The position numbers were made by a program, and so were the translations under genes. A DNA stretch of 64,000 nucleotides from Ecdyonurus torrentis (taxonomy: Eukaryota > Arthropoda > Insecta > Ephemeroptera > Heptageniidae), in contig OX439134.1 of NCBI GenBank assembly GCA_949318235.1, positions 24,748,662 through 24,812,661 of the forward strand, written 5' to 3'. Shown piece by piece: positions 8,231 to 61,778 of the stretch (position 1 is its first letter; every line of letters starts with the position of its first letter). The notes under the pieces were generated by a model that saw only the letters and a list, made by a program, of their open reading frames with translations, was not told the DNA's origin and ran no database searches.

Positions 8231-8736
8231 TTTATTATGTACGTATATAAAAAATAATGGGGATAGTCTAAATCCATAGAGATTTTTTTTATGATGAAGG
8301 GAGACAAAATCAAAAGTTGTATGATAGAAGATTTTCTCTTCTTTTTTTCTTCACATTTTTTTGTCAACCACTCTCTTTCACTGCGACGTCACTTGAAATA
8401 GTATCGAAATCAATAAATTGCTAAGACAGTGCATGATTTAACTCAATCCTCTCTACATTTTCGTAATTTTGTACTTTGGTGTTTATGCTGTAAATAAAGG
8501 AAATTGTAGTCAGTGATTTTTTAAAAATTATCTTGAAGAAAAAAGAGTAAGAGATAATCATGATGGAGTGCGATGAAATTTGAAATTAATAACTGTCACT
8601 TTTGTTTACTTTAAAAAGTTATTGATTATTTAACTTACCATAAGTTAGTATGTGAGAATAAGTTAAGCTACTCATTTAACGTATGTGCATATTATTAAGT
8701 TATAATTATGTGAGTATGATCTCAATGATAGCTTAA

Positions 8737-9069
8737 AGCCATAGATCACATAAAACATCATGTGCTTTTTAATGAATAAACACAAAATGGGATCTTCAAA
8801 ACTGATGACAATTTTTACCAGAATGTTTAGGTAGCCCCACGAGAGAGCGTGAAATTACTGTAAAATATGCAATTGGCGTGACTATTCATGTTTCTGACGT
8901 CAGAAACATGAAAAAATCAATAAAAAAATGTTGTGCGGGTTGCATAAATCGAAATTTTCTGATCACTGCTGCGCTACATTTGGGTTTTGAGACAAACTAA
9001 AGTTATTTATGTAAGTCCCATCAAGTGTTTTGTGATATAAATGCTTATGTTTTCTTTTGGTCTATTCCT
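8737..9069 (+). mobile_element. TTAA-flanked 335-bp MITE family, copy 1
   Basis: Starts AGCCATAGATCACATAAAAC and ends TGGTCTATTCCT with TTAA on both sides (8733-8736, 9070-9073). Terminal inverted repeats are imperfect (AGCCATAGACCA versus AGGAATAGACCA in the family consensus). Conserved interior blocks: CCCCACGAGAGAGCGTGAAA, TTTCTGACGTCAGAAAC, TGTGCGGGTTGCATAAAT and GGGTTTTGAGACAAACTA. Non-coding. Confidence 0.85.
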
Positions 9070-9202
9070 TTAAGATCAAATGTTTCGATGTAATAAAGGT
9101 GTATATTAATATTATAAATTCATTATTTTAATTACAATCAACAATAAACATTTACATTTCCGGTGTCCTGTTTTTTATTATTATTATAATTTTGGCTTCA
9201 TA

Positions 9203-16589: not shown

Positions 16590-19500
16590 CACCCCCTGAT
16601 TAGTTAAGGGATAATTAGCCTCAAAAATTCAAGTTCTTCGATTTGAATGCAACCAACGTCCTTACTGGGTTATTTAACCTGATTAAGATAATGGTGACAA
16701 GAAATAGTAAAAAAAACCCACCCCTGATTAGTTAAGGGATGGTTTACCCCTAAAATTAAGGTACTCCAATTTGAATGCAATCAACATGTTTACTGGGAAA
16801 CCTTAACCTGATTAAGATAATGTTGACAAGCAATAGTGAAAAATTTATCCCCTGTTAGTTAAACTTTAATTTAAAACGTGCTGAAATTTTAATTTTCAAC
16901 CCTTAAAGAGTGTTTCGGGGTGGTTCAACCACCGCTATAGGGTTCTCCGATTCTGACATAACCAACGATGTTTCCAGGGTAACATGACTAACATGCACAG
17001 ATAAAACAATGGCGACCAACAAAAATTATTAAATTGACTCCTGGAGGATTTAGGGGTGCCACCCCTGCTAGTGAAAATTAATATATTTAAGTGCAATCAA
17101 CTTCAGTTCCCAAGTTATTCGACCAAACAAAGACAATGGTGATTACCAAAAATGTTAAAATTGACCCCTGGAGGATTGAGGGGTGCCACCCCTGCTAATG
17201 AAAGTTCTCAAATTTCCGTGTAATCAACGTTGGTACTGGGGTTATTTGACCCAACAAAGACAATGGTGACTACCAAAAATGTTAAAATTGACCCTTGGAG
17301 GATTTAGGGGTGCCACCCTTGCTAATGAAAGTTTTCAGATTTCCATGTAATCAACGTTGGTACTGGGGTTATTTGACCAAAAAAAGACAATGAAGACTAC
17401 CAAAAATGTTAAAACTGACCCTTGGAGAACTTAAGGGTGCCACCCCTGCAAATAAAAGTTCTTGAATTTGAGTGCAATAAACGTCAGTACTGGGATAACT
17501 TGGTCCTTTAAATACAACGGATACTCCTTATAAAAAAAATTAAACTCTGAAGAATTAAAGGGGGCTAACTCAGCAAAAAAGTCAACCTTTAGGGGTTAAT
17601 TCAAAAAAATTTAAGGTTAAGTTATCCCAGTACTAATGTTGACTGCATAAGTTTTTTATTTCTAGAGTAGGCACTTGTAAATCTTCTAACGTTTAATTTT
17701 TTTATTTTTGGTGGTCACAATTGTCTTTGTTGGTTCAGATAACTGCAATAATAATGTAAATTGCACTAAAATCAGATAACTTTTCTTTGCAAGGGTGGCC
17801 CCTTAAGGTCTACAAGGATCAATTTTATCGTTTTAAGTGATCACGTTCGTCTTTGGTAAGTCAAGTTACCCTTGTACCGACGTTGATTGCACTGAAATTG
17901 GATAATTTCTATTTGCAGGGTTACATAATCAACTTCTGAGAATTAAAGGGGCGGTTCAACCGTAAAATTCATGTATCATGATTTGGATGCAACAAACGTA
18001 GAAATCGGGGTAACTTGACGTCCGTATAACGATTGTAAGCAAAAAAGGGTTACATACTTACCCCTTGAGGATTGAAGGGGCGATTCAACCATAAAATTCA
18101 ATTATCTTGATTTGGATGACACAAGCTTTGAAGTAGGGGCAATTAGACTTCCATACAACGATAATGAGCACCAAATGGTTACCTACTCATCCTGTGAGGA
18201 TTAAAGGGGCAGTTCAACGAAAAAATTCAAGTATTCCGATTTGGATGACAAAAGCGTAAAACTCGATGTATCGTGAGCTTTTAAAAACTATTGCAGGCAC
18301 CAAAGGTCTATTAACTTACCCGCTAAGATTTGAAAGGGCGGTTCAACTTTGACGTTTGAGTTCTACGATTTAAATACGACGTTATATTTATATTACAAGA
18401 AGCATATACAACTTTTTGGTACTATTCATAAAATTATAAAAATCAAGGTTTTGCGAAATACGCCATTCTTTGCATGAAAAAAAAACTAAATATTAAAGTT
18501 GAATCGCTCTTTAAATCTCAACGGGTGAGTTAATAGACCTTTGGTGCATGCCATAGCTTTTGAGAGCTCAAGTTACCCCGACTTTTACGCGTGTGTCATT
18601 CAAATGGGGATACTTGCATTTTACGCTTCAACCGCCCCTTTATTCCTGAGAAAGTAAATATATAAACCTTTGGTGTTCATTGTTGTTCATTGTCAGGTTA
18701 CCACGATTTCAAGGCTTGTGTTATCCAAATAGGGATACTTGAATTTTATGGTTGAACCGCCCCTTTATTCTTGAGGGGATGAGTATGTAACAATTTAGGG
18801 CTTACTATCGTTATATGGAAGTCAAGGGACCCCGATTTCAAAGCTTGTGTCATCCAAATCGGGATACTTGAAATTTATGGTTAAACCGGACTTTTAATCC
18901 TCAAGGGGTGAGTATGTAACCCTTTAGTGCTCACCAACGTTATATGGAAGTCAAGTTACCCCGATTTCAACGTTTGTGTCATCCAATTTGAGCTAATTGA
19001 ATTTTTCGGTTAAACCGCCCCTTTAATTCTTCAGGGTTGATTATTTAACCCCTTGGTGCTGACCATCGTTATATGGAAGTCAAGTTACCCCGACTTTAAC
19101 GCTTGAGTCATCCAAATCGAGATAATTGAATTTTTTGGAAGAACCACCTCTTTAATTCTCAGGGGTTGAGTATTAACCCCTTGGTGCTGACCATCGTTAT
19201 ATGGAAGTCAAGTTACCCCGACTTTAACGCTTGAGTCATCCAAATCGAGATAATTGAATTTTTTGGAAGAACCACCTCTTTAATTCTCAGGGGTTGAGTA
19301 TTAACCCCTTGGTGCTGACCATCGTTATATTGAAGTCAAGTTACCCCGAATTCCACGCTTGTGTCATCCAAATTGAGCTAATTGAATTTTTCGGTTGAAC
19401 CGCCCCTTTAATTTTTCGGGTTTGAGTATTTAACCCCTTGGTGCTGACCATCATTATATGGAAGTCAAGTTACCCTGATTTCAACGTTTGTTGCATCCAA

Positions 19501-19690
19501 ATCGGGATACTTATATTTTACGGTTGAACCGCCTCTTTAATCCTCAGGGGGTGACTATGTAACCCTTTAGTGCCCACCATCGTATTCAGAAGGTCAATTA
19601 ACGCCAACTTCAACCTTCGCTGCGTCCAAATCGGAGAACTTTAATTTTAAATACGTAGGCCCCTTTTTGACCCCCAGGGGGTGGACCCAA
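16590..19690. repeat. 128-bp satellite array with orientation switches
   Basis: Units of about 126-129 bp recur, marked by TATATGGAAGTCAAGTTACC (about 18940, 19069, 19198, 19326, 19454) or by its diverged inverse (GGGGTTATTTGACC, CCCCTGGAGGATT; about 17037, 17163, 17289, 17416). Orientation is one way at about 16590-17570, reversed to about 17930, back until about 18410, then reversed to 19690. Two adjacent units near 19070-19327 are identical over about 128 bp, so unequal exchange has been recent; others differ widely. Short open frames are not coding. Confidence 0.8.
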
Positions 19691-28300: not shown

Positions 28301-28581
28301 TAAGTGGGGTTCGTTCATATCTTATATAATTTTCGAGTTGTGCATTTTACTTTCGATGATGTATTGTATACGATTTAAAGTGTTTTAATAATTCTGAGGC
28401 GAGAAATTCAAAATGTGAAAACTTCATATGAATATTGTAAGCCCTAAACCAGGCCAAAATTAACATAAAACTAATAATGATCCTTGCCTATGACGTATCC
28501 TGATTATGTAAAGTTGTTTAATTAGTTTAAAATATTTGTGGAATACTTGTTTTACAATAAGATTTTTTTCTTCAGTGTTAA
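22613..28581. other. AT desert with microsatellites
   Basis: Six kilobases of AT-rich DNA: (CT)n at 25316-25373, a short (GA)n at 25785-25813, a C-run at 27430-27441. A GC-richer patch at 25830-26140 contains donor/acceptor-like sites (TTTTTCAG about 25915, ACAG/GTAAAA about 26000), and one at 28040-28330 is open on both strands. Neither gives a recognisable protein. Confidence 0.5.
25316..25373. repeat. (CT)n microsatellite
   Basis: CT tract with one TTG interruption near the left end. Confidence 0.9.
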
Positions 28582-28916
28582 AGCTATAAACCAAATAAAA
28601 CAACATGTGTTTTTTAATGAATCGACACGACATGGGATCCTCAAAACAGATGACAATTTTTACCAGAATGTTAATGTAGCCCCACGAGAGAGCGTGAAAA
28701 TACTGTAAAGTATGCAATTTGCGTGACTATTCATGTTTCTGACGTCAGAAACGTGTAAAAATTAGTAAAAAAAATGTTGTACGGTTTGCATAAATTGAAA
28801 TTTTCTGATCACTGCTACGGAGCTACAGTTGAGTTTTGAGACAAACTAGGGTTATTTATGTAAGTCCCATCAAGTGTTTTGCCATATAAATACTTGTTTT
28901 CTCCTGGTCTATTCCT
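28582..28916 (+). mobile_element. TTAA-flanked 335-bp MITE family, copy 2
   Basis: TTAA precedes AGCTATAAACCAAATAAAAC (28578-28581); the right flank has decayed to TTGC. Interior blocks are as in the other copies (CCCCACGAGAGAGCGTGAAA, TCTGACGTCAGAAACGTG, GTTTTGAGACAAACTA). More diverged than the other copies at its ends. Confidence 0.8.
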
Positions 28917-29189
28917 TTGCATATAACACTACGTTGCTGTATTTTAAAATGAAATTTAAAATAAACGCAAATGCAGCCAAAGGGTAAAATTTGACAAAAT
29001 AACGATAAATTTCACAGTAACTTTATTTCACATGAGTGTAGTATAATACTTACTGTAACTGTTAGCGTTTATTTATTACAACAATTTTTCTGATCATAAA
29101 TATAAAAATTCATAAATCACACAATAAAATAAATAAAAATAGTTAATGATGTGTAAAATAAGATTATTAACATTAAAATAATTGTGTGC

Positions 29190-33437: not shown

Positions 33438-33673
33438 ATATAATTTAATATAAATTTATTAAGATGCTTAAACTATAGTAAACCATGTTTTAATTAATTT
33501 CTATTTCAAATTAATATTGAATGTAATTAAATTAGAATGTTGATTAATAAAATTAATTTCAATTTAGATATTCATAATTATAGTATATAGAATACTGAGT
33601 GAGAGTTAATTATATTTTATCTGATAATAATAAAGTAATATTTTAACACTATTGGTTTAAATGAAAGGGTTTA

Positions 33674-36600
33674 GACCCCTTTCACATGTGACGGTTTCAA
33701 AAAATTTCGAATTCGCGGGCTCTAGCCGCCAGCCAGCCGCGCCCCCTGGCGCCATTTTTATGGTAACAGCTGATCACAGCCCATTGCTGCCCATACTATT
33801 TTCACGTCTCCTAGCAGCTTAATATTAATTAGTCTTTACCAAATTATCATAAAAACTCATTAATCATATCGATTAAATTAATACTGTGGCGGCAAAAAAG
33901 TGATTATGTCGTTGCAACACCGCGAGAATCTACATTAAAGTTGGACGAGTTGCCTAGTTCGACGTCGTTGGATGTGCAGTTTTCACGGGAAGTAATTTGT
34001 TATTTTGCGCTAAAATCTCTTTGAAGCATGCAAAATAATTAAATATAAGTCATTTACTTTGTGTGAAATATGTTTGCAGGTTTAGAAGTACCAGAAAATT
34101 GCTGCCCGACGTAATATAAAACGAGGAAATTTTTGGCGCGGGGTATGGTGATCGAGTACAGTGCGAAGTTCAATAAGGTAAGCTGGGTTATTTCTTTAAA
34201 AGAACCATTGTGATAAAGGAAATAATCATCAAATAAGATGTAAATAATCTAAATTATATCATATAACTACTAGTTTTACTCTGTTTAAAACTGCCACACA
34301 GAAGTGAATAAATGTGAGCTCCCCAACGGCATGCATCATGGTATGTATATTATGTATTACAATGGGCCAAATCATAGGTTTTCATGAGTGTTCCATAACA
34401 TCATGTATATGTATTTCTCACAGTTATGTCACTCAAGCTATTTATACTTTTACTGAAATACACTTGCCTGTAGTTTCCATACAGCTTGTCTGTACAGTAT
34501 ACTGCGGGGTTGGGGTGTCGTAACCTGTCGACGATGAAATTTTCTGACATACATACCAGCATCATGGAGTGTGTATCATGTACAGTATTATAATCACATG
34601 CAAACTTCATCAAAATGATTTAAAAGAGGCCAATTTCACTGATATATAGTAATACTCATTCTTTCAGATGAACTGCTCCGAGTTGTTGGGAAAAGTCACA
34701 AACGACAACAATCTTTAGAAGGTACGTACCGTACATAATAATAATATATTAATTTGTAATATAAATTGTATATATATATACATATACTTTTTATAGGGAC
34801 TTAAAGTACATATTATTCAACAAACCTCAGGAGCTCGCCGGCAACTCATAGGAACGCTGAGTGCACAAAACTTTGAAGTTACGTATACCTGTTGTCGTTT
34901 GTGACTTTTCCCAGCAACTCGGAGCAGTTCATCTGAAAGAATGAGTATTACTATATATCAGTGAAATTGGCCTCTTTTAAATCATTTTGATGAAGTTTGC
35001 ATGTGATTATAATACTGTACATGATACACACTCCATGATGCTGGTATGTATGTCAGAAAATTTCATCGTCGACAGGTTACGACACCCCAACCCCGCAGTA
35101 TACTGTACAGACAAGCTGTATGGAAACTACAGGCAAGTGTATTTCAGTAAAAGTATAAATAGCTTGAGTGACATAACTGTGAGAAATACATATACATGAT
35201 GTTATGGAACACTCATGAAAACCTATGATTTGGCCCATTGTAATACATAATATACATACCATGATGCATGCCGTTGGGGAGCTCACATTTATTCACTTCT
35301 GTGTGGCAGTTTTAAACAGAGTAAAACTAGTAGTTACCCACACAGCACGGTTTATCCAATAGATATTCATTGGATATCCCAATATCCAAAATATATCCCG
35401 TCCATTTTAAATGAACCTTGAATGTCTATGGGATATTTAGCTTGGATATAAAAAAACAAATCCAAAATTAATTATCTAATTATTTTCAACCCGTTTTTCT
35501 CATGAGCGCTCATCAGCGCTGACAATTATATTAAGTTTTATTTATAATTTTAATCAATAAATATATTTTGGGGCAATTTTTTTATATCCACTGGTATATC
35601 CATAGAATATGCAAGAGTGGATATATAAAATTTCACTCACAAAATTAGTTTATTGAGAGATTTTATGATATATGTTATGAATTTATTTACCTAAAAGTTA
35701 TATTTCATGCTAATTGATTTTTTTAGTTACTTTAATATTTTAAATTCTTTATATCCATTAGATATCCCAAAAATATCCAAATATCCATAGGTATATCCAC
35801 CAGGGGGCAGCGTTTATTTGTGAATTTTAAATGATGCTAATTTTTTTATATTGTGCTCAATAATTAATTTTAAAATAGTATAAAGTATGGGTTTTGTGCA
35901 TTTAATTATAAGCAAACAATTCAAATCATAAAACAACTACAATTTTAATAATTAATTAACTTAATTTAATTTTGAAAATCCATCTCTAACTTTTTAAGTC
36001 AGACTGAAAAGTTGTGGTAATAATATCCTCCGAATATCCATATTATATCCTTCAATTTCGTGTCTCAGTGGAAGACACACAACTTTAAGTCATGAATATT
36101 TTCTGACTTGGGCAAAAACCAATAGCCCTTCCCCCGACCTGGGGGGGGGGGGAGGGTTGGGGGGTTGCCCATGTTAAATGAAATCACACAACTTTGACAA
36201 GTCATTAATATTTTCGGACTTGGGCACGCACACCGCACACCAATAGCACTTCCCCGGACCTGGGGGGGGGGGGAGTTGGGGGTTATTATTTGCCCATGTA
36301 AAATTGGGAAAATACTGAAAACAAAGTTAAAAAATACATTGCCTATATACCCCCCACCCCCCGAAACCCCCAAATTTTTCTATCATATCGCATTTAATTT
36401 AACATTAAATGTACTTTTTTAAATATATCCCATAGATCTACATGGTATATTCCAGCGGGCGGGACATTTGGATTTTCTGTGGACCTTCAGCGGAGATAAA
36501 TGGGATATATTTTGGGATATACGTAAGATATCTATAGGTCATTCAGTGCTGTGTGGGTATATGATATAATTTAGATTATTTACATCTTATTTGATGATTA

Positions 36601-37149
36601 TTTCCTTTATCACAATGGTTCTTTTAAAGAAATAACCCAGCTTACCTTATTGAACTTCGCACTGTACTCGATCACCATACCCCGCGCCAAAAATTTCCTC
36701 GTTTTATATTACGTCGGGCAGCAATTTCCTGGTACTTCTAAACCTGCAAACATATTTCACACAAAGTAAATGACTTATATTTAATTATTTTGCATGCTTC
36801 AAAGAGATTTTAGCGCAAAATAACAAATTACTTCCCGTGAAAACTGCACATCCAACGACGTCGAACTAGGCAACTCGTCCAACTTTAATGTAGATTCTCG
36901 CGGTGTTGCAACGACATAATCACTTTTTTGCCGCCACAGTATTAATTTTATCGATATGATTAATGAGTTTTTATGATAATTTGGTAAAGACTAATTAATA
37001 TTAAGCTGCTAGGAGACGTGAAAATAGTATGGGCAGCAATGGGCTGTGATCAGCTGTTACCATAAAAATGGCGCCAGGGGGCGCGGCTGGCTGGCGGCTA
37101 GAGCCCGCGAATTCGAAATTTTTTGAAACCGTTACATGTGAAAGGGGTC
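33674..37149. mobile_element. 3.5-kb foldback element with two 1037-bp arms (middle nest)
   Basis: Left arm 33674-34710; right arm 34890-35336 plus 36560-37149 (447+590 = 1037 bp once the nested insertion is removed); 179-bp loop. Termini GACCCCTTTCACATGTGACG and inverse; TTTA at 33670-33673 and 37150-37153. Arms differ at only a handful of positions where compared. Because the empty site (AAAGGGTTTAGCTTTCG) survives in the other arm of the host palindrome, the duplication can be read directly. TTTA/TTA and a CCCCTTTCAC-type terminus are most like PIF/Harbinger. No transposase; short frames repeated on both strands are mirror images. Confidence 0.75.
35337..36557. mobile_element. 1221-bp TA-flanked element with ATATCC repeats (inner nest)
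   Basis: Termini CCCACACAGCAC and inverse GTGCTGTGTGGG; TA on each side (35335-35336, 36558-36559). The uninterrupted left arm gives the empty site, confirming a TA duplication. The interior has many ATATCC/GGATAT motifs in both orientations, concentrated in the outer parts (35350-35465, 35585-35625, 35750-35815, 36020-36055, 36420-36540). Two diverged ~115-bp units (about 36070 and 36185), each ending in a poly-G run, stand in tandem. TA targeting suggests a Tc1/mariner-type source; no transposase. Confidence 0.7.
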
Positions 37150-37207
37150 TTTAGCTTTCGTGTTTCACCGTGTTATATAAGCAGTAAACTGACATTGAAA
37201 AGGAATT

Positions 37208-37279
37208 CGGCTCGACCGGGACTCGAACCCGGATCTTTGGTTTCCCAGACCACTGCGTTAACCATTACGCTACGGAGAC
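37208..37279 (-). tRNA. tRNA-Pro(GGG)-like sequence, inverted copy
   Basis: The mirror of the 37489 copy. It carries a G-to-C change in the acceptor stem that breaks another pair, so it is probably not functional. Confidence 0.4.
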
Positions 37280-37488
37280 TCCTTCCAATTCAACATCATT
37301 CACTGCTCATATTCACTGCTTTCGCTGCTTGCCATGCGCGTGCCTTCGTTGGCGCGACAGTTTAAACTGCTAAGCAGTCATGGCGGGTGCTCTTGCGAGC
37401 TATATGCCTCCACGTAGAGGGCAGTTATGAGAGTTTGTAAGCGAAAGCTGACTATATATGAGCAGTGAATGATGTTGAATTGGAAGGA

Positions 37489-37560
37489 GTCTCGGTAGCG
37501 TAATGGTTAACGCAGTGGTCTGGGAAACCAAAGATCCGGGTTCGAGTCCCGGTCGAGCCG
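37489..37560 (+). tRNA. tRNA-Pro(GGG)-like sequence
   Basis: Folds as a 72-nt cloverleaf: acceptor GTCTCGG/TCGAGCC (one mismatch, one GT), D stem GCGT/ACGC with loop AATGGTTA, anticodon stem GTGGT/ACCAA (outer pair mismatched) with loop CTGGGAA and anticodon GGG at 37522-37524, T stem CCGGG/CCCGG with loop TTCGAGT. The B box GGTTCGAGTCC is intact. GGG is normally not used for proline in animals, and the stem mismatches plus the inverted twin suggest a tRNA-derived mobile sequence rather than a working gene. Confidence 0.5.
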
Positions 37561-37829
37561 AATTCCTTTTCAATGTCAGTTTACTACTTATATAACACGG
37601 TGTAACACGAAAGCTAAACCCTTTCATTAAAACTTCCCGTGTAAAATAGGCGTAAATTACAAACTCTCACTATTGGTTTTGTTCATTGCAAATAATTGAA
37701 AATTCTCTCTTTATCTTACAGGGGGAAATTGCACTGAACATGAGATGCGGTGTAGTTTGTATTTGCATTTATATGTAGCAACGTCACTCAAGTAGCATTT
37801 AAGAATGAAAAATATTTGTACACACTTGA

Positions 37830-38158
37830 AGCCATAGACCACATACAACAAAATGTGATTTTTACTAATTGAACACAAAAATGGGACTTCCAAAACTGAT
37901 AACAATTTTTTAAATGTGGCCCCACAAGAGAGCATGAAAATTATGTAAATTATGCTATTTTCGTAACAATTCTAGTTTCTGGGTTCAGAAACAGGCAAAA
38001 ATTAGTATAAAAATGTTGTGCGGGTTGCATAAATTGAAACTTTCTGATCACCTGCTACGGTGCTACAGTTGGGTTTTGAGACAAAATAATGTTGCTTATG
38101 TAAGTCCTATTACAAATTTTGAGATATTAATGTTTCTGTTGTCTTCTGTTCTATTCCT
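37830..38158 (+). mobile_element. TTAA-flanked 335-bp MITE family, copy 3
   Basis: Left flank TTGA (decayed TTAA), right flank TTAA (38159-38162). Starts AGCCATAGACCACATAC and ends TGTTCTATTCCT. The central TGACGTCA is mutated (TCTGGGTTCAGAAAC). One of the more diverged copies. Confidence 0.8.
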
Positions 38159-38167
38159 TTAAATTTC

Positions 38168-47005: not shown

Positions 47006-48103
<1,098 letters not shown>

Positions 48104-48438
48104 AGCCATAGACCACATAAAACAACTTGTGCTTTTTAATGAATAAACAAGAAATGGGATATTCAAAACTGATGACAGTTTTTAACAGTAGCCCCACGAG
48201 AGAACGTGAAAATACTGCAAAGTATGCAATTTGCGTGACTATTCATGTTTCTGACGTCAGAAACATGCAAAACTTCGTAAAAAAAAAATGTTGTGCGGGC
48301 TGCATAAATCGAAATATCGTGATCACTGCTACGGAGCTAGAGTTGGGTTTTGAGACAAATTACAGTTATTTATGTAAGTGCTATCAAATGTTTTGTGATA
48401 TAAATGGTTATGTTTTCTTCTGGTCTATATATATTCCT
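48104..48438 (+). mobile_element. TTAA-flanked 335-bp MITE family, copy 4
   Basis: TTAA at 48100-48103 and 48439-48442. Starts AGCCATAGACCACATAAAAC and ends TCTATATATATTCCT (short AT insertion near the end). The open frame across it is incidental. Confidence 0.85.
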
Positions 48439-49409: not shown

Positions 49410-50197
<788 letters not shown>

Positions 50198-51990
50198 CGA
50201 TATATTCTTTCTCACAAACACAGGGAATAGAATATACTACATCTTTATTCATATTTTTCTTCATGTCTGGTTTTGTACGTGCTAAACTTGATTTTAATGT
50301 TTCTTTTGAAGAACAAACAATACGAAGATTGACTCCTTTACCTATACGTTGTATTTTTTCACTCAAACCTTGTATATAGGGGATGCAGATAGTTGCGTCT
50401 GGTTTCTTTTCTTCTGTTTTGTTTTTTTCTGTGCGGTTTTTATTTTTTATTTTAGCAACAACATGTAATGGATAGTCATTTTCTCTTAAAATCTCTTCTA
50501 TTTTATTAATTTCTTCATTTCTTACGTTGTTATCATTGCAGTGCGTTTTTGCCCTATGTAACAATGTAGCTGCTATACCTGTTTTTGTTGAGTGTGGATG
50601 ATTTGAGTTAAAATTCAGATATCTTCCACTGTCTGTCACTTTTCTATAGACTGAAGTTGTAATTTTGTTTTCTTTAGATCTTTTTACACGTACATCTAGG
50701 AACGGCAATTCACCTTCTTTTTCATACTCAATCGTGAATTTTATTGTCTCTGCCTGATTATTCATATGTTCTAAGAACGATTCAACTGGGGACTCATTTT
50801 GTGGCCATACTATGAAAGTATCGTCCACGTATCTTTTATATACCACTGGCTTTGGTGTATAACATTTTATCGCGTTATTTTCCAGTTTTTCAAGGTATAT
50901 ATCACTGAGAGCTGGTGATAATGGACAACCCATAGCTAAACCATTCTTCTGTTTATAAAAAGATCTATTGAATTCAAAGTATGTGTTTTTAATACATAAC
51001 GATATTAAATTCATAATAGTTGCAACACTATGTTGTGTTCTATTTTTTAATGTTTTGTCAACTTCAAGTTTTTCTCTGGTAGCTAACAAGGCTTCATCTA
51101 CTGGTACATTAGTAAATAGGCTTGTTACATCAAAACTAACCATAATATGCTTTTCTTCAATATTTCTTCCTTGAATTTCTTTAACAAAACAACTTGAATT
51201 TTTTATAAATGATGTACTACTTCCTAACAATGGATTAATAATTTTTACTAAATATTTCGCTAGCACGTGACTAGGCGAACCAATACTGCTAACAATAGGT
51301 CTAAGCGGTACTTCTTTTTTATGTATCTTTGGTAGACCATAAATATGTGGTGGTTTGCAATGACGTGGAGCTAATTGAAGACGTGTTACTTTTTTCATTT
51401 CTTTTAGCTTACATAATGCAGAATTTACATTTCTCTCTAAATTTCCAGTAGGGTTTGAATTTAAAATTTGATAATCAGAGCTGTCTACTAATTCTTTTAA
51501 CTTTTTATTATATTCTTCTTTGTTCATAACCACCGTCACATTACCTTTATCTGCTTTTCTTATTATTATGGATTTATTTGACTTAAGTTGTTGTAACGCC
51601 TCATTTTCTTCATCTGTAAGATTACTTTTTGTTTGTTTATGTTTTTCTATTGCTTGTTTTATTTTAACTCTAAATTCTTCTGCTTTCTCTGGTCCTAAAT
51701 ATACAGCGCCTACCTCAATATTTCTGATAATTTCTAACGTTGGAACTTGACTTGGAGTAACAGCATAGTTCAATCCTTTTTCAAGCACACTCTTTTGATG
51801 CAAGGTCATCACAACATCAGACAAGTTTACTACATGCTTACACACTTTTTCTACCTCCTCTGCATGAATTTTTGTCTTTTTGTTTGACAATGCACAAACA
51901 TGTTCTTTTAGATTGAGAATTTTCTTTTGGTGCGTTTTTATCTGTTTTGCTCTGCATTTTTCTGCTTTTACCAGGTACCTGCTTTTACCT

Positions 51991-52617
51991 GAGAAACAGG
52001 TCGACCATTAGAGATCAGGGTGAATGAACACAGGCAAAAAATAGAAAAAAGAGATACAGGATATTCAAAACTAGTAGATCATGCGCTGGAAAGTAATCAT
52101 CAAATTCTATGGGAAAAAACAAAAGTAATAGGAAGAGAGAGTCACTATAAAAAAAGAAAAATATTAGAATCAATAGAAATGGCAAGAAGAAAAAATGAAA
52201 CAATCAGTCAGCCCAGTTTTGAATTACCACCTATTTGGATTCCACTCATAGATTCTTTTAAGAAAAGTGTACCACGTGACCGTACAGGTGAAAATGTAAA
52301 TAATAATAAACCACCTGACGAGAACGAGCCACACCCCCCATTGCGGAGGTCGGCTCGCCTCGTGAGCAAGAGTCAGTAAGCTGATGAAGAGAGGCAGACA
52401 AGTATATAGTTTTATATACGCCCTCGAAAACGTTACAATTGTGTGTGAATATAACATAGCTATGTATATAGATTTTTAAAAACTGTGAATTGAGTATTTT
52501 ATTAATTTATATAGTGACAAGTTTTGGTGTTGTGTGTTATTTTTATCATCAAATTAAGCAGCGAGTGAAAGCCCAGTGGTTTTACAGAAGGTAAGACAAA
52601 AATGAAATTTTTATCAT
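51991..52617. repeat. Penelope-like terminal repeat, right arm
   Basis: 627 bp, inverse of 49571-50197. On the plus strand it encodes the last ~125 residues of the same protein (from GRPLEIRVNEHRQK to SARLVSKSQ, stop 52377-52379) with no change seen. Confidence 0.9.
52377..52437 (+). ncRNA. hammerhead-ribozyme-like motif, right arm
   Basis: CTGATGA at 52381-52387 and CGAAA at 52425-52429, the two invariant core blocks. Between them is a plausible helix II: GAGAGGC pairs with GCCCTC (one bulged A) and continues as GTATATA/TATATAC around a GTTT loop. Before the core, GTAA could pair with TTAC just after GAAAACG. Hammerheads are reported in the terminal repeats of Penelope-like elements. The cleavage triplet and helix III could not be assigned, so activity is unproven. 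Confidence 0.45.
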
Positions 52618-52648
52618 CATGTCACCTCGCTCGATATTCAAATTTTCA

Positions 52649-52651
<3 letters not shown>
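52618..52651. other. 34-base extension next to the right terminal repeat
   Basis: CATGTCACCTCGCTCGATAT followed by TCAAATTTTCAAAC, present on the right side only, between the inverted repeat and the TA tract. Confidence 0.5.
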
Positions 52652-54717
<2,066 letters not shown>

Positions 54718-55984: not shown

Positions 55985-56646
55985 GCATGCAATAAATTTA
56001 TTGCATATTAAAATATAACTCCATCGAAACATCCATGATCGAAACAAAACATAAAAAAAAAATCATTAACCCGATTATACATATAGTTTACTATTAAAAC
56101 ATTTTGCATAAATAAAATGAATAACTTGCTTTATACTCTATCTATCTCACTGTGTGGCATAAATGTTGCTAAATTGAAACAGCATAAATAATTATGATAA
56201 AACATAATATTTATTATATACAGTTAAATTATATTACAATGCATATAATGTTGCTAAAAATGGGCTAGAATAATTGTTACGTATACATTTTTACCCGTGT
56301 TTTCAATTTATATTTAACTGTGCATGCAATGAATTTATTGCATATTAAAATATAACTCCATCGAAAAAAAAAAAAAAAAAAAAAAAAGATCATTAACCCG
56401 ATTATAAATATATTTTACTATTAAAACATATTGCATGAATAAAATGAATAACTTGATGTACAGTATACCGCATAATTGTTGCTAAATTGGAGCAGCATAA
56501 ATAATTATGCTATGCAAAACATAATATTTATGGTATATTACATAATTGTAATTTTATTACTTGAATTACATTACAAATATTATTATATTATTTCAATTAA
56601 TTAATGTCTCAAAATTTTCTCAATACGTATAATGTTCTATCATTAA

Positions 56647-56982
56647 AGGAATAGACCACAGAAAAACATAAGCATTTATATCACAAAACACTTGATGGGA
56701 CTTACATAAATAATATTAGTTTGTCTCAAAACCCAACAGTAGCCCCGTAGCAACGATCAGAAAAATCGATTTATGCAACCCGCACAACATTTTCATGCTA
56801 ACTTTTGCATGTTTCGGACGTCATAAACATGAATTTTCACGCAAATTGCATACTTTACAGTTTTTTTTACGCTCTCTCGTGGGGCTACATTAACATACTG
56901 GCAAAAATTCTCATCAGTTTTGAAGATCCCATTTCGTGTTTATTCATTAAAAAGCACATGTTGTTTTATGTGGTCTATGGCT
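56647..56982 (-). mobile_element. TTAA-flanked 335-bp MITE family, copy 5
   Basis: TTAA at 56643-56646 and 56983-56986. In reverse it starts AGCCATAGACCACATAAAAC and ends GTGGTCTATTCCT. The conserved TGACGTCA reads GGACGTCATA here. Confidence 0.85.
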
Positions 56983-57066
56983 TTAAATGTTCATATTTGT
57001 CTGGATGTATTTGAGTATAATCTACTGAAATTATTCTATTATATTGCATTTATGATTACTGTACTC

Positions 57067-58591: not shown

Positions 58592-58595
58592 TTAA

Positions 58596-58930
58596 AGCCA
58601 TAGACCACATAAAACAACATATGCTTTTTAATGAATAAACACGAAATGGGATCTTCAAAACTGATGACAATTTTTACCACAATGTTAATGTAGCCCCACG
58701 AGAGAGCGTGAAAAAACTGTAAAGTATGCAATTTGCGTGAAAATTCATGTTTATGACGTCAGAAACATGCAAAAATTAGTATGAAATTGGTGTGCGGGTT
58801 GCATAAATCGAACTTTCTGATCACTGCTACGGAGCTACTGTTGGGTTTTGAGACAAACTAAAGTTATTTATGTAAATCCCATCAAGTATTTTGTAGTTTA
58901 AATGCTTATGTTTTTCTCTAGTCTATTCCT
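58596..58930 (+). mobile_element. TTAA-flanked 335-bp MITE family, copy 6
   Basis: TTAA at 58592-58595 and 58931-58934. Starts AGCCATAGACCACATAAAAC, ends CTAGTCTATTCCT. All conserved blocks are present; the best-preserved copy along with copy 4. Confidence 0.88.
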
Positions 58931-58949
58931 TTAAACAAAACTTCTTTTT

Positions 58950-60724: not shown

Positions 60725-61435
60725 TTTAACTTAAAATACCGAATTTGATATCTCAAATCATGAATAATAATTACTTCTAATTTAACCTAATTACAAATCT
60801 TTTAAGATTATATTTTAGTTGCCATAGAGAATTATTAAATTTTCTTTTATTGATAAAAATTTATTTCTTTTTTTCAAGTTTAATTGTTCTTAAAATTGAC
60901 CTTTGGGATTTGGAGATAAAGTTAAAAAAAAAAATTTAAATCCAAATTTTTTCATTTGCAATCTCTATTATCATTATTATTTTATTAGTAGACTAATTGC
61001 TATACAAATTAAAGAATAATTTTAATTGTAGTATTTAAAAAAATTAGCATTTCGGCCAAAGTTCATTATTAAATAATAGTTTAATCTTGCGACAAACTCT
61101 TAACTATTTAAAAAGTTTCTTATAATTAAGATGCAACACAGCCCAATTTTGTTAAAAAAATTTTTTGTAGACTTTAACAATTTAATATAATATTAATGTG
61201 AATATGAAAAATATTAATATGAAAAATTAAAAAAAAAATCTGCATGTAATAAAAATTCTGCGGTATTTTTTTTTCAATAAATTACTAAAATGAGTTTTGA
61301 ATTTTAAATTTTTCCATTTCTCAGCTTTTACTTTTGTTTAAAAAAAAAGTTACCACCTTGAAAAACTGTGTCAGCATTTATTGAATTCCAGCAATAATTG
61401 TTATGTATTAGTTCTTTGCATGCGTTTATTATTAT
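60725..61435. other. AT-rich spacer, no gene seen
   Basis: AT background only. Confidence 0.5.
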
Positions 61436-61774
61436 AGGCATAGACAAGAAGAAAACATAAGCATTTATATCACAAAATACTTGATGGAACTTACATTATG
61501 TAACATTAGTTTGTCTCAAATCCAACTAGTGCCGTGGCAGTGTTCAGTGATTTATGCAACCTGCACAACATTTTCCTACTAATTTTTGCCTTACGTCATA
61601 AACAGAAATATTCATGCAAATTGCATACTTTACAACATTTGTACGCTCTCTTGTGGTGCCTTGATAAATTGATAAAAAATTGATAAAAATTGATAAAAAT
61701 TGTCATTAGTTTGGAAGATTCCATTCTGTGTTTAATCATTAAAAAGAACATGTTGCTTCATGTGGTCTATGCCT
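61436..61774 (-). mobile_element. TTAA-flanked 335-bp MITE family, copy 7
   Basis: Right flank TTAA (61775-61778); left flank decayed. In reverse it starts AGGCATAGACCACATGAAGC and ends CTTGTCTATGCCT. A short GATAAAAATT tandem lies at 61671-61700. Diverged copy. Confidence 0.8.
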
Positions 61775-61778
61775 TTAA

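Follow-up and report, generated by a model that had tools for sequence, protein, structure and literature searches.

Three mobile elements sit inside one another at positions 33647-37679 of a 64,000-nucleotide stretch of the Ecdyonurus torrentis genome (positions 24748662-24812661 of contig OX439134.1; hereafter, the window): a tRNA-bearing outer layer, a middle palindrome with 1037-bp arms and an inner 1221-bp element. An earlier note made from the sequence alone (the original prediction) recognised this nest, which we verified base by base, and read its outer layer as a foldback element. The locus therefore raises the question of what kind of element the outer layer is, and how its two opposed arms were made. 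We find that the outer layer belongs to a large, young and dispersed family whose copies are head-to-head arrays built from a tRNA-bearing unit, and we consider it very likely that it is a non-autonomous retroelement moved by the reverse transcriptase, with endonuclease, of a Penelope-like element (PLE), with complementary DNAs (cDNAs) made from both sides of the cut. All genome-wide searches covered the 503-Mb assembly (117 contigs); genome samples are 220 kb drawn from 22 places.

A family of tRNA arrays with two fixed ends

In the window, the left copy of a 12-bp target duplication (CACTATTGGTTT; 33647-33658, plus strand) is followed by the e1 end of the outer element (AAATGAAAGGGTTTA; 33659-33673, minus strand), which forms the outer end of the minus arm as far as the site of the middle insertion. 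The remainder of the minus arm lies at 37154-37440 (minus strand) and carries a tRNA-Pro(GGG)-like sequence at 37208-37279 (minus strand). The plus arm at 37440-37667, its tRNA-Pro(GGG)-like sequence at 37489-37560, and the right copy of the target duplication at 37668-37679 are all on the plus strand; the outer end of this arm is e2 (...TTACAAACTCT). The anticodon GGG was assigned by ARAGORN, and the two Rfam tRNA scores are 58.8 and 52.9 bits. Arms were placed by a local-alignment script in the coordinates of a 332-nt unit that ends at e2 and has the tRNA at 152 to ~222. On this scale, the minus arm comprises 0.91 unit and has its inner end at position 321, crossing the unit boundary near 37428 (read from the sequence), while the plus arm comprises 0.69 unit and has its inner end at position 103; the arms meet at 37440 and hold one tRNA each. 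Most of the supposed foldback "loop", together with a 13-nt inverted match, is the rest of the minus arm. Moreover, the two arms of the outer layer are not symmetric: the right side extends ~40-45 nt beyond anything matched on the left, as far as 37667, and this one-sided tail (37628-37667, plus strand, plus arm only) was absent from the original prediction.

Within the window, CACTATTGGTTT is present only at 33647-33658 and 37668-37679. As a chance control, we drew random pairs of 60-bp window stretches, skipping pairs less than 500 bp apart; 42 of 100000 pairs had in common a 12-mer that contained all four bases and, without the four-base condition, 45 of 20000 pairs shared any 12-mer. A chance origin of the duplication is thus unlikely. 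It had been claimed that every empty site of the nest is kept in the opposite arm of a palindromic host. This is the case for the inner and middle insertion sites but not for the outermost site, which has no palindromic host and rests on the 12-bp duplication and on other genomic copies.

A search for further copies of the outer layer gave 485 matches in the assembly (best 40 of 940 candidates scored), with units in tandem and orientation switches in mid-array. The exact tRNA core was found 427 times (216 + 211) and the e2 motif 488 times (240 + 248, those within arrays included), while the same patterns read backwards were found 0 + 0 times each. The first 100 of the 427 tRNA cores fall into 45 clusters, 28 of which have a single exact core. 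In this set, the order is minus then plus in 17/17 clusters with several cores, and neighbouring cores of the same orientation are spaced by 331, 332 or 333 bp.

Thirteen copies were inspected and none was dropped, i.e. the window copy, the loci L031-L041, and L053, which is an isolated place from the listing of e2 motifs. The outer ends are GAAAGGGTTTAGC (e1) and ...AAATTACAAACTCTC (e2), each uncertain by one or two bases according to how the boundary of the duplication is placed. Perfect target duplications of 12-14 bp flank one e1 and one e2 end in 12/12 copies (window and L031-L041), and L053 has a 12-bp duplication with one mismatch (by eye). Swapped pairs, in which the left end of a locus was set against the right end of a different one and searched as freely as the true pairs, gave a best match of at most 8 bp in 4800 draws over 12 loci. 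The 13 target duplications are 89% AT vs 72% AT in the genome samples. In all 13 copies the outer ends are fixed, with the plus arm ending at unit position 331-332 and the minus arm at 288-290, which leaves a one-sided tail of 42-44 nt. By contrast, the inner ends are scattered (plus arm 6-303, minus arm 51-321), the arms range from 0.09 to 6.2 units, and the central junctions range from an overlap of 13 nt to a filler of 36 nt. Among 12 loci, the numbers of tRNAs per arm pair extend from 1+0 up to 6+1 and 5+5, and copies reduced to a stub on one arm have the same two ends as the others.

These observations bear on the foldback DNA transposon of the original prediction. Inverted arms and a duplication are what such an element would have; however, the two ends differ when read inward (GAAAGGGTTTAGC vs GAGAGTTTGTAA), symmetric terminal inverted repeats are absent in 13/13 copies, the tail is on one side only, and the number of tRNAs per arm varies while stub-armed copies keep both ends. 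We conclude that the foldback reading is almost certainly wrong and that the outer layer is instead a PLE-type insertion whose two ends are fixed but differ from each other. As a separate observation, a 5S rRNA match of 37.6 bits (gathering score 38) lies close to the tRNA array of L031, at 338-456.

The proposed enzyme and RNA template

The same genome contains many near-identical PLE copies, many of them with open frames of ~850 aa; among the 62 matches listed, some copies are tandem and others head-to-head. A ~35-nt tail is present on exactly one side in 7/7 head-to-head PLE copies inspected (five of six adjacent inverted pairs, L008 and the window copy). PLEs are known to occur as tandem and head-to-head copies that bear a tail of 30-40 nt on one side. 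The PLE of Anolis, when purified, both cuts and extends the two DNA strands, and two adjacent internal start sites on its RNA delimit the tail (PMC11167929). Similarly, the available part of a 2013 study of rotifer PLEs describes two inverted pseudo-long terminal repeats (pLTRs), one of which bears a 31-bp tail, and duplications of 8-10 bp (PMC3846280). The tRNA family shares this architecture, its tail being 42-44 nt long.

The PLE of the window itself lies at 49434-52739 in (TA)n, with a reverse transcriptase frame at 49809-52007 (minus strand) and a one-sided tail. Its inverted flanks align over 734 bp at 96.6% identity, and near-identical open copies are present elsewhere in the genome.

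The family, its ends, the duplications, the arm pattern, the junctions and the nesting are read directly from the sequence, and what we infer is the PLE as the enzyme, the form of the RNA template, and the order of cutting and joining. A PLE enzyme would make a staggered cut, with the nicks 12-14 bp apart, in AT-rich DNA. On a tandem (multimeric or circular) RNA of the 332-nt tRNA-bearing unit, one cDNA would start at unit position 331-332 (e2) on one side of the cut and another at 288-290 (e1) on the other side. Both cDNAs would extend inward and then be joined end to end by the cell, giving a head-to-head array, a one-sided tail and a target duplication. The window copy would have formed in this way with one tRNA per arm.

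Complete units, which are 331-333 nt long, tend to be alike within an array. Type A is the sequence shared without change by 21 of the 38 complete units. Several arrays carry one type throughout both arms: L040 has only type B (6/6 units), L031 and L032 only type C (5/5 units) and L033 only 333-nt units (3/3). Type A makes up 5/5 units of L041, which are in the minus arm only, and all units of L037, L038 and L039 save one single-change unit in each. In L033, a variant occurs in both arms, in units D and F but not in unit E, a pattern that fits better with a multimeric template, or with later conversion between the arms, than with a single monomer circle. Moreover, the minus arm exceeds 0.87 unit and crosses the e2 boundary in 12/13 copies, L053 being the exception, so that the template would have been tandem units or a circle. 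In the computed fold, the unit RNA pairs strongly with itself (z -4.5, with 0/100 shuffles as good). Two comparisons were not used: the pairing of single-tRNA flanks was matched by 39/2000 shuffles, and distances within and between arrays from 195-nt pieces (5.5 vs 6.9 differences) came from pieces that crossed junctions.

The inner ends allow an alternative to be weighed in which a single cDNA is made from one side, and its end folds back and primes itself to give a head-to-head palindrome. Self-priming was the mechanism favoured for PLEs in the available part of the 2013 rotifer paper (PMC3846280), and it could account for inner ends such as the equal ones of L031 (51/51) and L053 (212/212) and the nearly equal ones of L035 (297/292) and L036 (303/306). 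However, in 11/13 copies the two inner ends lie 3-218 nt apart on the unit scale; the nine copies besides these four differ by 12 to 218 nt, and the larger differences would require long snap-back loops. Moreover, copying the first cDNA back would yield no second fixed outer end 42-44 nt away. We therefore regard self-priming as improbable, though it deserves some weight.

The tRNA sequence raises a second alternative. Short interspersed elements (SINEs) derived from tRNAs have a tRNA sequence, are non-coding and make target duplications; long interspersed elements (LINEs), for which twin priming is documented, could have moved such a SINE, with 5' inversion by twin priming and tandem amplification afterwards. 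In support of this, the Rfam tRNA match scores 58.8 bits in 17 units from 6 loci, in keeping with the tRNA-related sequence of SINEs, and the duplications are 12-14 bp long. The second start in twin priming falls at variable places, whereas all 13 copies have it at unit position 288-290, and no A-rich tail was seen at e2. A TTTT follows a few nucleotides past the tRNA, so that a complete-unit transcript by RNA polymerase III is doubtful as judged from the sequence, which also speaks against a SINE. Finally, later amplification alone would not account for the same unit type in both arms; conversion between the arms could. A LINE-moved SINE is thus very unlikely.

Several points weigh against mobilisation by a PLE, the reading that we prefer. 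No autonomous PLE with the same e1-e2 region was found among the two PLE families compared, which have a different tail and lie in (TA)n sites, where target duplications are unmeasurable. PLEs often carry a hammerhead (PMC11167929); none was found in the PLE of the window. In the tRNA family, Rfam gave 40 matches with E no higher than 1 over 6 loci and none of them was a hammerhead, and the commonest unit has no CTGANGA core on either strand. The RNA template is deduced from DNA, and L031-L041 were picked among the best-scoring matches, not randomly. The unit is too short for a reverse transcriptase or a GIY-YIG endonuclease and, by its length, is not an autonomous PLE. In total, the outer element is classed by its signature as PLE-mobilised, and not as a retrozyme because the ribozyme test failed.

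The middle palindrome, the inner element and the order of insertion

The middle palindrome with its insert occupies 33674-37149 (3476 bp, or 2253 bp minus the 1221-bp element and one TA). It consists of a left arm at 33674-34710 (plus strand, 1037 bp), a centre of 179 nt at 34711-34889, and a right arm on the minus strand in two parts, at 34890-35336 (447 bp) and 36560-37149 (590 bp). As claimed in the original prediction, the arms are equal once the insert is removed (1037 vs 447 + 590 = 1037); when one arm is aligned with the reverse complement of the other, they align over all 1037 positions without gaps and with 4 substitutions. The palindrome is flanked by TTTA at 33670-33673 and 37150-37153 (both plus strand), and removal of the palindrome and one TTTA rebuilds the opposite arm of the outer element with 4 substitutions in 174 nt. 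Two readings of the site fit equally, i.e. TTTA with the ends GACCCC, or TT with the ends AGACCCC.

Solo copies of the inner and outer layers were found elsewhere in the genome; by contrast, the palindrome has no second copy in the 503-Mb assembly (4 candidates, all scored), where beyond itself it matches only two stretches of ~60 bp, both to its AT-rich centre. The palindrome is probably a low-copy DNA transposon that is unrelated to the outer element. It could also have arisen from a two-ended PLE insertion whose RNA source is missing from this assembly, as its arms lie head-to-head around an unpaired centre and PLEs are able to copy intron-bearing foreign genes, according to the available part of PMC3846280. 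However, its ends are identical and lack a tail, its duplication is just 4 bp (2 bp under the reading with AGACCCC ends), no further copy of its sequence was found, and a DNA transposon with long inverted repeats is the better fit; an origin as a PLE product is unlikely. As side observations, the arms (33674-34710) are 37% GC vs 28% GC in the genome samples and contain splice-site-like motifs, noted by eye, and their longest frame is 72 aa.

The inner 1221-bp element lies at 35337-36557 and has imperfect terminal inverted repeats (CCCACACAGCAC...) and a 2-bp duplication, which is TA here (35335-35336 and 36558-36559, plus strand). Removing the element and one TA rebuilds the opposite palindrome arm exactly over the stretch printed. 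Among the matches listed (best 40 of 1080 candidates scored), the element is found in 39 other places at 96-98% identity. The TA duplication of the original prediction thus holds in the window but is not specific to the element: seven solo copies were fetched, and from their printed flanks the duplications are TT, GT, AT, TT, TT, GC and TT. A Tc1/mariner-type assignment, which calls for a TA target duplication, was rejected because 7/7 solo copies have other 2-bp duplications. Within the element, two adjoining stretches at 36076-36304 are 77% identical over 122 columns and have a 12-G run each.

It is unlikely that the palindrome was created by an assembly error because the arms differ by substitutions, because two of the three layers recur elsewhere, and because every inspected copy of the outer layer carries a target duplication. 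The order of events proposed in the original prediction is upheld from the nesting, from which the relative age of the three insertions is read. After the tRNA element had formed, the unrelated palindrome would have entered its minus arm at TTTA, and last, the common 1221-bp element would have entered the right arm of the palindrome. Dating by arm divergence (outer 4/174, middle 4/1037, Fisher p 0.018) was dropped, the outer arms probably being separate cDNAs.

Exact patterns for the tRNA, the ends of the middle element and the ends of the inner element gave 0 matches each against viral contigs. When nine query pieces from the nest and its surroundings were compared with the 220 kb of genome samples, the only piece to match was a neighbouring ~340-bp repeat. 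This repeat is common (11 matched stretches in the samples) and has seven copies in the window, at 8733-9073, 28578-28918, 37825-38163, 48100-48428, 56643-56986, 58592-58934 and 61432-61778. Finally, a GC-richer block at 17003-19650 contains direct and inverted repeats that overlap one another and are offset by close to 125 bp.

Relatives of the tRNA family and what its copies may record

Among known systems, PLEs (Penelope, Poseidon and related clades) resemble the tRNA family in that copies are tandem and head-to-head, two adjacent starts leave a tail on one side, target duplications are short and targets are AT-rich, as described in the available parts of PMC11167929 and PMC3846280. They differ from the tRNA family, which consists of a 331-333-nt tRNA unit without reverse transcriptase or endonuclease and in which no hammerhead was found.

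The metazoan non-LTR (long terminal repeat) retrozymes are likewise close. The available part of PMC7229834 describes them as non-autonomous repeats of 150-450 bp, arranged in tandem in anything between two copies and a long multimer, with a highly self-paired RNA and with target duplications that, when present, are longer than 4 bp, and its authors suspect PLEs of the same genomes as the mover. However, retrozymes are defined there by a type I hammerhead, instead of which the present family has a tRNA, and the words 'inverted' and 'head-to-head' are absent from the portion of the main text available (PMC7229834).

Two other groups share the tRNA. The SINEs derived from tRNAs are alike in tRNA sequence, absence of coding and duplication length, but the present family has multi-unit head-to-head arrays with two fixed ends, and its unit includes sequence upstream of the tRNA and lacks an A-rich tail. 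The Helenus TRIMs (terminal-repeat retrotransposons in miniature) are small non-autonomous tRNA-bearing retroelements as well; by contrast, they are LTR elements with 4-6-bp duplications that are moved by LTR retrotransposons (PMC10886601, available part). A literature search, for which subscription journals were mostly beyond reach, found no paper on a PLE-moved tRNA element.

We tentatively suggest, as a possibility well short of probable, that the family is a PLE-dependent, tRNA-based counterpart of retrozymes, in which the tRNA, as promoter or processing site, takes the place of the ribozyme in making a circular or multimeric RNA that is reverse-transcribed repeatedly from both sides of the cut. 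If this is true, the arrays would be a genome-wide record of PLE insertion in which the laps around the template can be counted for each arm. How PLE insertion is completed is an open question, and in the 2024 work with the purified PLE the later steps were "yet to be validated experimentally" (PMC11167929). The 13 copies read fit two separate starts, and the family offers many recent insertions with readable starts, lengths and junctions; the first 100 tRNA cores listed, out of 427, already supply 45 clusters for this purpose. These observations also suggest that the place of the ribozyme in retrozymes can be taken by a tRNA; the RNAs moved by PLEs would then be more varied.

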